In this document: positions 21,744 through 30,201 of the stretch, piece by piece
Position numbering within the stretch: the first letter of the stretch is position 1
How the letters are laid out: the number at the start of each line of letters is the position of its first letter
Assembly: GCF_000422565.1 (NCBI RefSeq)
Contig: NZ_AUMA01000011.1
Coordinates: 62,001-126,000, forward strand
From: Desulfovibrio aminophilus DSM 12254
Lineage (GTDB): Bacteria > Desulfobacterota > Desulfovibrionia > Desulfovibrionales > Desulfovibrionaceae
DNA: 64,000 bases
Direction: 5' to 3'
Notes under the pieces: model-generated
Databases searched by the model: none
The model's input: only the letters and a program-made list of their open reading frames with translations
Told to the model about the DNA's origin: nothing
Position numbers and translations under genes: made by a program

Positions 21744-23354
21744 GTGGCCAAGACCACTGACGCATACGCCAACGGAAACAACGGCGCGGAGACCGAACGC
21801 GCGGACCTGCACAAGATCATCTGGCGCATCGCCAACGACCTGCGCGGCAGCGTGGACGGCTGGGACTTCAAGGGCTATGTGCTGGGCTTTTTGTTCTACC
21901 GCTTCATCTCCGAGAACCTCGCCGCCTACCTCAACGAGCAGGAGCGCGCGGCCGGGGCTTCGGACTTCGACTACGCCGACCTGAGCGACGCGGACGCCGA
22001 ATCCGGCCGCGCCGAGACCGTGAGGGAAAAGGGATTCTACATCCTGCCCTCGCAGCTGTTCGCCAATGTGCGCGAACGCGCCCGGCAGGACGCGGACCTC
22101 AACGAGACCTTGAGCCGCGTCTTCACCGACATCGAGGCCTCGGCCAAGGGCGCGGACAGCGAGGACGACTTCAAGGGCCTGTTCGACGACATCGACGTCA
22201 ATTCCAGCAAGCTCGGCCCCACGGTGGCCAGACGCAACGAGAAGCTGGTCAAGCTGCTCGAGGCCATCGGCGACCTGCCCCTGAACAACGGCTCGGGAGC
22301 ATTCTCGGGCAACAGCATCGACCTCTTCGGCGACGCCTACGAATATCTGATGCAGATGTACGCCTCCACCGCGGGCAAGTCCGGCGGCGAGTTCTACACC
22401 CCGCAGGAGGTCTCCGAGCTCTTGGCCCGCATCACGGTGGTCGGCAAGGAAGAGGTGAACAAGGTCTATGACCCGGCCTGCGGCTCCGGCTCCCTGCTGC
22501 TGAAATTCGCCAAGGTGCTGGGGACGGACAAGGTGCGCCAAGGCTTCTTCGGCCAGGAGATCAACCTGACCACCTACAACCTGTGCCGGATCAACATGTT
22601 CCTGCACGACATCAACTTCGAGAAGTTCGACATCGCCCACGGCGACACGCTCACCGACCCCAAACACTGGGACGACGAGCCCTTCGAGGCCATCGTCTCC
22701 AATCCGCCGTACTCCATCAAATGGGACGGCGACGCCAACCCCCTGCTCATCAACGACCCGCGCTTCGCGCCCGCGGGCGTGCTCGCGCCCAAGAGCAAGG
22801 CCGACCTGGCCTTCACCATGCACATCCTTTCCTGGCTGGCGGTGAACGGCACGGCGGCCGTGGTCGAATTCCCCGGCGTGCTCTATCGCGGCGGGGCCGA
22901 GGCCAAGATCAGGCAATACCTCATCGACAACAACTACGTGGATGCGGTGATCCAACTGCCGCCCGACCTGTTCTTCGGCACCACCATCGCCACCTGCGTC
23001 ATCGTGCTCAAGAAGTCCAAGTTCGACAACGCCACCCTGTTCATCGACGCATCCAAGGAATTCACCCGCAACGGCAACAAGAACAAGCTCACCGAGCCGC
23101 ACCGGCAAAAAATCCTCGAGGCCTACACCGGCCGCCAGGACATCCCCCACTTCGCCCGCCTGGTGCGCAACGCCGACATCGCCGAAAACGGCTACAACAT
23201 CGCGGTGTCCTCGTACGTGGAGCAGGAGGACGTCCGCGAGGCAGTGGACATCAAGGCGCTCAACGCCGAGATCGGCCGCATCGTGGCCCGGCAGGCCGAA
23301 CTCCGGGAGCGGATCGACGCCATTGTCGCCGACCTGGAGGGGGGAGTCGCATGA
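21744..23354 (+). CDS. hsdM: Type I restriction-modification methylase subunit HsdM
   Basis: A 536-aa N6-adenine methyltransferase subunit. The N-terminal HsdM domain (about 12-130: IIWRIANDLRGSVDGWDFKGYVLGFLFYRFISENLAAYL) precedes the catalytic domain with SAM motif DPACGSGSLL near 242 and motif IV NPPYS near 320. The EcoR124-like sequence suggests a type IC-like system. GTG start with AGGAG upstream. First of the hsdM-hsdS-hsdR operon. It forms M2S1 with HsdS for modification and is carried by the prophage. Confidence 0.96.
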   Translation: MAKTTDAYANGNNGAETERADLHKIIWRIANDLRGSVDGWDFKGYVLGFLFYRFISENLAAYLNEQERAAGASDFDYADLSDADAESGRAETVREKGFYILPSQLFANVRERARQDADLNETLSRVFTDIEASAKGADSEDDFKGLFDDIDVNSSKLGPTVARRNEKLVKLLEAIGDLPLNNGSGAFSGNSIDLFGDAYEYLMQMYASTAGKSGGEFYTPQEVSELLARITVVGKEEVNKVYDPACGSGSLLLKFAKVLGTDKVRQGFFGQEINLTTYNLCRINMFLHDINFEKFDIAHGDTLTDPKHWDDEPFEAIVSNPPYSIKWDGDANPLLINDPRFAPAGVLAPKSKADLAFTMHILSWLAVNGTAAVVEFPGVLYRGGAEAKIRQYLIDNNYVDAVIQLPPDLFFGTTIATCVIVLKKSKFDNATLFIDASKEFTRNGNKNKLTEPHRQKILEAYTGRQDIPHFARLVRNADIAENGYNIAVSSYVEQEDVREAVDIKALNAEIGRIVARQAELRERIDAIVADLEGGVA

Positions 23355-27828: not shown

Positions 27829-28131
27829 ATGCGTGTGATCGCCAAAAAAACCCTCCGAGTTTTTTGGGAGAACCACCCGGACGCGGAGGGGCCGCTTCAG
27901 GCCTGGCATCACGAGCTGACAAAGGCCACGTGGAAAGACTGGACGGAAATGAAGAGGCGCTTTCCATCGGCGGACGCAGTAGGAGGGGATCGCTATGTTT
28001 TCAACATCAAGGGGAATACATACCGACTGGTGGCGGAAATCGCCTTCGCCTTCGGCATCGTGTTTGTCAAGTTCATAGGCACACACGCCGAATACGACCG
28101 GATTACCGCCAGGGAGGTGGAGCCCAAATGA
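27829..28131 (+). CDS. higB: HigB-family mRNA interferase toxin
   Basis: A 100-aa toxin of the HigB/RelE-like family. Family pattern is evident: MRVIAKKTLRVFWENHPDAEGPLQAWHHELTKATWKDWTEMKRRFPSADAV, then RYVFNIKGNTYRLVAEIAF and VFVKFIGTHAEYDRI. Such toxins cleave mRNA on the ribosome. The start is placed at the family N-terminus; there is no visible ribosome binding site, and the promoter suggests a leaderless message. It overlaps the antitoxin gene by ATGA. Located directly after hsdR, perhaps to stabilise the RM block. Confidence 0.88.
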   Translation: MRVIAKKTLRVFWENHPDAEGPLQAWHHELTKATWKDWTEMKRRFPSADAVGGDRYVFNIKGNTYRLVAEIAFAFGIVFVKFIGTHAEYDRITAREVEPK

Positions 28132-29381
28132 CGAACACCATCAAGATCATCAAAACGGAGGCCGCGAACAACAAAGCGTTGAAGCGCATTGAGCATCTCA
28201 TGGGGACGGCGCGTCCCGGAACCCCGGAGGGCGATGAGCTCGAACTTTTGACCACGCTTGTGGAGCTGTATGAGAAGGAAAATGCTCCGATACTCCCGCC
28301 TTCGCCTGTTGAGGCCATCAGATTCCGCATGGATCAGATGGACCTGACCAACAGGGACTTGGTGCCGATTCTTGGCAGTAAGTCCCGGGTCTCCGAGGTG
28401 CTTTCCGGGAAGCGGCCTTTGACTTTGAGCATGATCCGGGCTCTCCGCAAGCATCTCGATATTCCCGCCGATGTGCTGGTGGATTCTCCCGAAGAACTGC
28501 CCCAAGAGCCCACGGGCATACAGTGGGAGAACTACCCTCTGAAAGAGCTTGTCCATCGAGGGTGGTTCCAGGGCCTCAAGCGTTGGAAAAAGGAGTTCTC
28601 CGCTCAAGCGGAAGAATGGATGCGGGATCTGCATGAACGTGCCGGGGGCGGCCCATTTTGCGCTCCTGCGGCCTGCTTCCGCAAGGGAAGCCGCAGAAAC
28701 GCCAAGGCCGACTCCTACGCCCTGCATGCCTGGATTCTCTGCGTGAAGGCTAAGGCGACGCAAATCCTGCGGGAGCATCGCAGCGAACTCGGGACGTTTG
28801 AGCGGAACCGGCTTGACGATGACTTCTTCCGTGAGATCGTCCGGTTGAGCGTCCAGGAAAACGGCCCCAAGGTGGCCCAGAATCTCTTGAAGGTGTATGG
28901 AATCCTGCTGGTCATCGTCCCGCATTTCGACAAGACTTATTTGGACGGCGCGGCCATGCTCCTGGAGGACGGCACGCCCGTCATCGGTCTGACCCTGCGC
29001 CATGACCGCATCGACAACTTTTGGTTTTGCCTTCTGCACGAGCTGGCCCACGTCCGGGAGCACCTGCATCCGGACAACACGGACCTGGTCCTCGACGACC
29101 TGGACATCCACGTCGATGATGACGGGATAGAAAAACAGGCCGACATGATCGCGCGCGAGGCTGAACTCCCTGCTGATGTCTGGAAGAAAAGCAAGGCCTA
29201 CCAGCTGCCGACGGCGCAAAACGTCCGGAGCTTGGCGAAAGCGCAGAAAATTCACCCGGCCATTGTGGCTGGACGGGCTCGTTTTGAGATAAAGAATTAC
29301 AGGATGTTGTCCAAGCTTGTCGGATTCAAAACCGTTCGCGAGCTTTTCGCGAAGGAAATGCAAGGCCCAAGCGGGCATTAA
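28128..29381 (+). CDS. HigA-type antitoxin fused to ImmA/IrrE-like metallopeptidase domain
   Basis: A 417-aa protein. Residues about 1-125 are a HigA-like antitoxin with an XRE helix-turn-helix (VEAIRFRMDQMDLTNRDLVPILGSKSRVSEVLSGKRPLTLSMIRALRKHLDIPADVLV). The C-terminal half contains the zinc-peptidase motif HELAHVREH near 304 with downstream acidic residues (EKQADMIAREA), as in ImmA/IrrE domains. It probably neutralises HigB and autoregulates; the peptidase may degrade a regulator or itself under stress (inference). Typical HigA is about 100-140 aa, so this is a four-fold longer fused form. Confidence 0.85.
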   Translation: MTNTIKIIKTEAANNKALKRIEHLMGTARPGTPEGDELELLTTLVELYEKENAPILPPSPVEAIRFRMDQMDLTNRDLVPILGSKSRVSEVLSGKRPLTLSMIRALRKHLDIPADVLVDSPEELPQEPTGIQWENYPLKELVHRGWFQGLKRWKKEFSAQAEEWMRDLHERAGGGPFCAPAACFRKGSRRNAKADSYALHAWILCVKAKATQILREHRSELGTFERNRLDDDFFREIVRLSVQENGPKVAQNLLKVYGILLVIVPHFDKTYLDGAAMLLEDGTPVIGLTLRHDRIDNFWFCLLHELAHVREHLHPDNTDLVLDDLDIHVDDDGIEKQADMIAREAELPADVWKKSKAYQLPTAQNVRSLAKAQKIHPAIVAGRARFEIKNYRMLSKLVGFKTVRELFAKEMQGPSGH

Positions 29382-29414
29382 TATATACAAAGGCGAAGGC
29401 CGCCGTCTCAACTA

Positions 29415-29510
29415 GGAGAGCAGCGGCCCTTGGCATACGCGGAAACCGCGCACACGATGTCTGGTACACATTCGTTATGCGGCCTCCCTTGATATGTCAA
29501 GCTGCTCTCC
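29415..29510 (+). ncRNA. Candidate structured RNA of unknown class
   Basis: A 96-nt element with at least five nested helices by eye. P1: GGAGAGCAGC (29415-29424) with GCTGCTCTCC (29501-29510), 10 perfect pairs. P2: GGCC...GCATA (29425-29437) with TATGCGGCC (29476-29484). Inside P2: hairpin CGCGG-AAA-CCGCG (29438-29450) and hairpin CGATGT/ACATTCG (29455-29474, one bulge). Beside P2: hairpin TTGA-TATG-TCAA (29489-29500). This makes two stacked three-way junctions. It lies between the HigA-like gene and the 82-aa gene (start 42 nt downstream). Strand is inferred from neighbours. No known class recognised. Confidence 0.55.
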
Positions 29511-29551
29511 CGCAAATGAAGACCCTCTGTGGGTCATGAAAGGAGCCCATC

Positions 29552-29800
29552 ATGGGCTACAATCCGAAGCGTTCCTCTGCGGCCGTGGCGAGCCTTGCGG
29601 CTCAAGTTCTGCAGGACGGCAACTCCTCTGGGGTTCAGAGGCGGTTGGCCGGTTCCGTGCTGTCGCAGACGAACACGGGCAACCAGACTGGGGCGGAATT
29701 GGAAGGCTTGGCTTCGCGGGTTCTCCAGAGCGAAAAGTACAATGACCTGACCCAGGCCTTGGCTGGGTCGGTGCTTTCGCAATCCAATAAGGCCCGGTAG
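29552..29800 (+). CDS. 82-aa two-repeat small protein
   Basis: An 82-aa protein built from two copies of a unit of about 29 residues (13-41 and 51-79). Each has a pattern LAxxVLQ...AGSVLSQ, and AGSVLSQ is identical in both. Predicted mostly helical, no membrane span. AAAGGAGC is 8 nt before the ATG. The gene follows the structured RNA element and is followed 13 nt later by a strong terminator, so RNA, protein and terminator look like one unit. I recall similar small repeat proteins in other bacteria but cannot name a function. Confidence 0.7.
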   Translation: MGYNPKRSSAAVASLAAQVLQDGNSSGVQRRLAGSVLSQTNTGNQTGAELEGLASRVLQSEKYNDLTQALAGSVLSQSNKAR

Positions 29801-29813
29801 TCTGATCGACAAC

Positions 29814-29846
29814 AAGGCCCCCGCTTCGGCGGGGGCCTTCCTTTTC
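29814..29846 (+). terminator. Terminator of the accessory block
   Basis: Stem AAGGCCCCCGC / GCGGGGGCCTT (11 bp) with loop TTCG, followed by CCTTTTC. It ends rightward transcription just where the leftward late operon finishes (29845). Confidence 0.85.
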
Positions 29847-30201
29847 ACATCCCCACCCCGGCGGACCAGCCGGAAGGCTTGAAGACCGCGAGCTTCTCCT
29901 CGTCCTCGATGTAGGCCAGCCAGCCCGCGCGGGGCATGGCCGAGGCCCAGGCCGAGCCGGTCCAGACCACCACCCGGCCCTCCAGCCCGGCCCAGTCGCC
30001 CGAGGCGGACGCGGCCACGATGTAGGAATCCCCGGCCGCCGGGCCGGCGGGCGGGGCGGCCAGGTCACGGTCCCTGACCGAGAGGTGGAAGCCGAAGCGG
30101 CCCAGGGTGAGCAGGTTGGCGTCCATGGCCACGTTCCAGCCGGACTCGCCCAGGCCCCAGCCGTAGTTCAGGCCGCTGCGCGGCTCGACGGAAGCAGGCA
30201 T
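29845..30201 (-). CDS. DUF2793-like tail accessory protein
   Basis: A 118-aa protein resembling the DUF2793 family found at the end of phage tail operons: GLNYGWGLGESGWNVAMDANLLTLGRFGFHLSVRDRDL, AAGDSYIVAASASGDWAG, RAGWLAYIEDEEKLAVFKPSGW. It is probably a virion tail-fibre or tail-tip accessory. It is the last gene of the leftward late operon and abuts the large tail-tip gene by 1 nt. Confidence 0.75.
   Translation of the reverse strand: MPASVEPRSGLNYGWGLGESGWNVAMDANLLTLGRFGFHLSVRDRDLAAPPAGPAAGDSYIVAASASGDWAGLEGRVVVWTGSAWASAMPRAGWLAYIEDEEKLAVFKPSGWSAGVGM

Follow-up and report, generated by a model that had tools for sequence, protein, structure and literature searches.

The element considered here lies in a prophage of Desulfovibrio aminophilus DSM 12254, with an integrase beside tRNA-Asp, tail genes and terminase, that occupies positions 16842-53414 of the window (the whole 64,000-nt stretch of DNA analysed). 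Restriction-modification-like genes and a HigBA pair are carried as cargo between the lysogeny region of the prophage and its tail operon. (A tRNA-Leu called by ARAGORN at 21946-22022, antisense within a methyltransferase gene, is without Rfam support and is probably a false positive.) An intergenic stretch of 96 nt, 29415-29510, flanked by the end of a HigA-type gene (29381) and the start of an 82-aa ORF (29552), had been picked out in a preliminary description as a structured RNA candidate. Its sequence and position were given correctly, its placement outside genes and about 42 nt ahead of the 82-aa ORF is borne out by the coordinates, and the terminator proposed for the end of the small gene corresponds to a GC-rich terminator-like hairpin. 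The neighbouring features are as follows.

27829 to 28131, + strand: HigB toxin, upstream neighbour (PF09907, 1.4e-30)
28128 to 29381, + strand: HTH plus M78-like (HigA-type) protein, directly upstream of the RNA (HTH and M78 scores below Pfam cut-offs)
29521 to 29535, + strand: small hairpin GACCC-UCUGU-GGGUC between the pseudoknot described below and the ribosome-binding site (computed folds)
29540 to 29545, + strand: Shine-Dalgarno (SD) sequence AAGGAG of the 82-aa gene (from the sequence)
29552 to 29800, + strand: 82-aa ORF, phrog_5079-related, of no Pfam or NCBIfam family
29814 to 29839, + strand: GC-rich terminator-like hairpin closing the leader-ORF unit (sequence and scan)

The 82-aa family is widespread, with 53 plasmid records, mostly from Rhizobium and Acinetobacter; a search for a useful solved structure of this protein, or of a DUF2188 protein, found none. 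Records filed as 'Acinetobacter phage MD-2021a' (L014, CAKLQH020000001.1) contain paa catabolic genes and look like contigs of a bacterial chromosome.

Folded computationally, the 96 nt reach -40.3 kcal/mol (z = -3.8 against dinucleotide shuffles, none of 200 of which equals it). The preliminary description envisaged five helices, with two nested three-way junctions, and of these P1 and, in part, a tip hairpin have stood. P1, of 10 perfect pairs (29415-29424 with 29501-29510), is present and is kept in 25 of 27 cells of homologues in A5, a MAFFT alignment of four sequences that was not fitted to any structure. The junctions did not hold up: the structure as drawn lies 3.7 kcal/mol above the minimum free energy (MFE) fold, with a probability of about 1% for the inner helices, CGATGT/ACATTCG at the tip excepted. 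None of those inner helices is conserved, with GGCC/GGCC, GCATA/TATGC, CGCGG/CCGCG, CGATGT/ACATTCG and TTGA/TCAA being kept in 6/12, 10/15, 5/10, 12/18 and 3/12 cells of A5, respectively. The MFE fold is a 10-bp P1 around one long arm, the stem of which (UUGGCAUA/UAUGUCAA) is kept in 22 of 23 cells of the same alignment. Further, the element is longer than earlier drawn. Its start is upstream, in a GGCCGC at 29398-29403 whose partner is the GCGGCC at 29423-29428, and with this pairing (S1) P1 becomes the second stem, S2, of a pseudoknot.

Among 288 genomes of the same GTDB family, searched at the DNA level, there was one clear leader homologue, L016, and the small ORF that follows it is a different one. 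A covariance model of two sequences (R1) led to L026 and BLAST with L026 to L170; a four-sequence model (R2) returned L189 as well as L188 and L191, which share a genome, and a seven-sequence model (R3) returned L198 (E = 1.1e-7 for one genome). L198 was absent from the R3 training set, had been returned by no earlier search, and has a perfect 9-bp S2, GGCGGACUC/GAGUCCGCC. With the window, the seven homologues in six other genomes bring the total to eight loci, spread over seven genomes and all within one GTDB family. Candidates L027-L032, L190 and L199-L201, which were short, without the arm stem or low-scoring, were treated as noise, the last three as a group. No leader outside the family came from an order-level search of 297 genomes with R1, an insensitive model, and blastn gave no real phage or plasmid homologue. 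In viral contigs the exact pattern had no match, with otherwise chance hits only and one weak site without S2 (L196, 11.8 bits). A second copy in its own genome was not found and, the element being single-copy, a repeat or MITE there was rejected. Homologues of the RNA had been anticipated upstream of the same 82-aa family; the 82-aa homologues in relatives and elsewhere (L008-L014) are without it, and the RNA homologues precede five other small-gene families. The RNA is therefore not tied to the 82-aa protein, and the proposal of a phage small RNA acting with that protein is not supported.

Comparison of the eight loci reveals at every one of them a conserved H-type pseudoknot, presumably transcribed as a leader, in which S1 crosses a covarying S2. 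In the window it is about 113 nt long (29398-29510) and is laid out as follows.

29398 to 29403, + strand: S1 5' arm GGCCGC, start of the conserved RNA, pairing with 29423-29428 (S1 of 6-7 bp in 8/8 loci)
29404 to 29414, + strand: loop L1, CGTCTCAACTA, with a partly conserved CUCAA-like stretch (alignments A5 and A7)
29415 to 29422, + strand: S2 5' arm, GGAGAGCA, the 5' strand of the former P1 (double compensatory changes in 8/9 modelled P1/S2 pairs)
29423 to 29428, + strand: S1 3' arm GCGGCC, directly abutting S2 (linker L2 of 0 nt, eight loci)
29429 to 29437, + strand: 5' strand of the arm stem ('stem B'), CUUGGCAUA (double changes in 3/9 pairs, 95.8% of cells paired)
29438 to 29492, + strand: variable apical part of the arm, neither sequence nor pairing being conserved among loci
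29493 to 29501, + strand: 3' strand of the arm stem, UAUGUCAAG, pairing with its 5' strand
29503 to 29510, + strand: S2 3' arm, UGCUCUCC, candidate anti-Shine-Dalgarno strand (perfect S2 of 7-10 pairs in 7/8 loci)

S1 and S2 cross and abut throughout, with no linker nucleotide at any of the eight loci; L1 is 9-15 nt, and L3, of 70-77 nt, holds the arm closed by its conserved stem (CUUGGC../..GUCAAG). S1 is nearly invariant among loci and so has little covariation of its own, though in L189 it is GGCCUCC/GGAGGCC, a G-C to U-A change. L016 has a bulged S2, and there the nested MFE fold forms an S1 hairpin in place of S2.

The letters of P1 vary widely: GGAGAGCA/UGCUCUCC in the window, GGAGUGGGU/ACCCACUCC in L188, ACACGAGCA/UGCUCGUGU in L189 and, as above, another pair in L198. 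In A5, 95.8% of the cells of S2 and the arm stem together are paired and five pairs are double-changed, and the covariation score is one that 1 of 500 shuffles reaches; slid registers on that alignment pair in 32-52% of cells. When all eight sequences are aligned (A7, which was fitted to the S2 model and holds the whole family of only eight), 96.5% of cells pair, 11 of 18 pairs are double-changed and none of 500 shuffles is as good. This covariation in homologues rules out chance structure, and the earlier expectation of compensatory changes is realized for P1 but not for the helices then drawn as P2, which are not conserved.

Which strand folds? Of 142 cells, 137 pair on the + strand and 120 on the - strand, the former folding better because 18 of the pairs are G-U; this G-U usage marks + as the folded strand and argues for RNA and against a DNA palindrome. 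It is pertinent to the thought that the conserved entity is DNA, whether an attC-like folded-strand recombination site, the terminus of a mobile element or a palindromic operator. That would explain why the cargo differs where the same leader is found on different small genes, and the S1 arm sequence does recur in the terminators of L170, L191 and L198. However, the strand of an attC site that recombines is the bottom one, on which the 18 G-U pairs are impossible, neither an R-box pair nor any GTTGAGA-type partner box (R-box GTTRRRY/RYYYAAC) is seen in the sequence, and the element is present once in its own genome. We consider a DNA element very unlikely.

Every copy of the RNA (8/8) is followed on its own strand, after 18-41 nt, by a small ORF; these ORFs are of 42-103 aa and belong to six unrelated families. 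The neighbours, with L026 and L170 operon gene names assigned by eye from sequence, are these.

Window: 82-aa repeat protein downstream; HigB/HTH-M78 upstream
L016: YjzC-family protein downstream, identified via annotated relatives; caspase-Sel1 protein upstream
L026 and L170: 54-55-aa Cys-rich protein downstream, then cas5 of a type I-C operon; cas3 upstream
L188: HNH protein downstream; SecB-like protein upstream
L189: 42-44-aa family downstream; nrdD upstream
L191: 42-44-aa family downstream; XRE-ImmA upstream
L198: DUF2188 protein downstream; homologue 39% identical to the HTH-M78 protein of the window upstream

The 42-44-aa ORFs of L189 and L191 match each other at 1e-11, and ORFs related to the Cys-rich protein are found on Thermus and haloarchaeal plasmids. 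The neighbourhoods often contain toxin-antitoxin, CRISPR or prophage genes, and the leader-ORF units are closed by terminator-like hairpins. In L170, L191 and L198 the S1 arm sequence (GGCCGC/GCGGCC) recurs in the hairpin behind the ORF, which gives the unit two similar ends (L195 3765-4200, L193 3839-4040, L202 5000-5990). That one type of leader precedes several unrelated small genes reads as a common control cassette recombined between loci. The same-strand small ORF close by in all eight cases speaks against a trans-acting small RNA lying beside small genes by chance, as does a scan of the window, in which RNA and ORF are not separated by any + strand terminator. The large stable fold would suit such an RNA and a promoter of its own is possible. 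On balance we think a trans-acting RNA very unlikely. The structure of the family and its association with small genes are well supported by the sequence comparisons.

What sort of RNA is it? Rfam 15 has no match at gathering threshold, whether for 29398-29510 or for the seven homologues, in keeping with the first impression of no recognizable class, and a relaxed search of 29300-29900 gave chance-level matches only. In the part of the literature on new bacterial RNA motifs that was covered, there was no match by term. The SAM-II, SAM-V, SAM/SAH and preQ1 classes are translational riboswitches built on H-type pseudoknots (PMC6061858, PMC7367207, PMC11625349). Like them, the present RNA would be an mRNA leader with an H-type pseudoknot of coaxial stems and an expected effect at the ribosome-binding site. 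Unlike them, it has its Shine-Dalgarno sequence outside the knot, with the 3' strand of S2 as the candidate anti-Shine-Dalgarno, which would make the knotted form the ON state; its loop 3 of 70-77 nt holds an arm; it matches no Rfam model; and it precedes unrelated small accessory proteins rather than the genes of one pathway. Another parallel is with orphan riboswitch candidates, rare motifs known from comparative genomics such as the gcsH motif of Desulfobacteraceae (PMC11109978), which it resembles in being rare, taxon-restricted, intergenic, upstream of ORFs and supported by covariation, and from which it differs in its six unrelated small-gene families. The initial suspicion of a genuine, unclassified structured RNA is supported by eight homologous leaders with strong covariation: this is a real and new structured-RNA family of the orphan-riboswitch kind, absent from Rfam 15.

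That the RNA is a leader controlling the small gene, one of the possibilities first raised, gains from all eight leaders preceding a small ORF and from the covariation. How might it act? We envisage S1 and S2 stacking as one rod, and the 3' strand of S2 having two possible partners, its own 5' arm within the pseudoknot or the ribosome-binding site. With the pseudoknot formed, the site would be free and protein made; with S2 opened, its 3' strand could cover the site and translation would fall. The trigger might be a metabolite, an ion, temperature, a protein or the ribosome. A -10-like signal ahead of S1 is not significant (p = 0.12) and was rejected as a conserved box, so that a start of transcription at S1 is conjectural. 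Pertinent to this, complementarity of the S2 3' strand to the Shine-Dalgarno region, judged against shuffles of the same 18 nt, has a Fisher p of 1e-4 over the eight loci and is individually below 0.05 in five of them. It is weak in the window (p = 0.16), L026 and L170, three loci in which additional hairpins lie close to the site instead. A second competing helix, an inner hairpin of L1 with the S2 5' arm, is suggestive by eye and was rejected as a conserved feature (Fisher p = 0.30 over loci).

The same pseudoknot could be a constitutive 5' structure of the mRNA, protecting it from degradation or offering a standby platform for the ribosome, with neither switching nor ligand. The stability of S2 (-9.5 to -17.4 kcal/mol), which in seven of eight loci exceeds that of the pairing of tail to Shine-Dalgarno, would fit, as would the terminator-like hairpins that follow the leader-ORF units and the further hairpin that some leaders have near the ribosome-binding site. 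Yet the complementarity of tail to Shine-Dalgarno is non-random over the set, and sequence conservation of the arm stem and S1 exceeds what stability alone would need, so that we consider a purely constitutive role rather unlikely. Cis-acting translational control by the leader is moderately supported; that the element is specifically a 5' leader pseudoknot serving as a cis-acting translational switch for small accessory genes we put at about even chances. Going a step further, to a new riboswitch class that senses a ligand and governs mobile small proteins, most of them uncharacterised, of prophages and defence islands, is possible though doubtful; if true, a single signal, physiological or related to infection, would be common to these unrelated genes.

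The RNA might alternatively bind a protein, be it a regulator belonging to a phage or a defence island or, in the manner of type III antitoxin pseudoknots, a toxin, and either control the small gene or itself be controlled. Toxin-antitoxin or defence neighbours are upstream in the window, L198, L191, L188, L016, L026 and L170, but the upstream genes differ and there is no one protein family common to the surroundings of all eight RNAs. ToxI of type III toxin-antitoxin systems is an RNA pseudoknot close to defence genes, and in that respect the present pseudoknot is similar. It is, however, a single element and not a tandem repeat array, its downstream ORFs are mutually unrelated and match no toxin family, and there is no ToxN-like toxin. 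We take protein binding to be unlikely; an earlier suggestion of a toxin-regulating RNA is unsupported as such, for all that toxin-antitoxin or defence genes are often the upstream neighbours. No reverse transcriptase gene of a retron or DGR was present among the neighbours examined.

Irrespective of how the leader acts, an RNA family absent from Rfam 15 is now represented by eight sequences, with a pseudoknot model that can be tested. The family further provides a handle on several widespread and uncharacterised small-protein families: DUF2188, YjzC, the 82-aa repeat and the Cys-rich proteins within type I-C CRISPR operons. A leader common to these suggests that the proteins are needed under the same condition, and once the signal to which the leader responds has been identified, their role could be tested directly.

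Two of the settings merit mention in their own right. The leader and Cys-rich ORF are between cas3 and cas5 in the type I-C CRISPR operons of two genera (L046 3343-3700, L195 3758-4300), and directly before that cas5 is a lone CRISPR-repeat-like sequence, GTGGATTGAAAC, perhaps a degenerate repeat serving an autoregulatory guide. Downstream of nrdD in two genomes (L202 5324-9697, L194 3360-6128) there is a leader-small ORF unit, one region having HTH-M78 with DUF2188 and the other the 42-44-aa family with DUF2188, and the place looks like an insertion hot spot.
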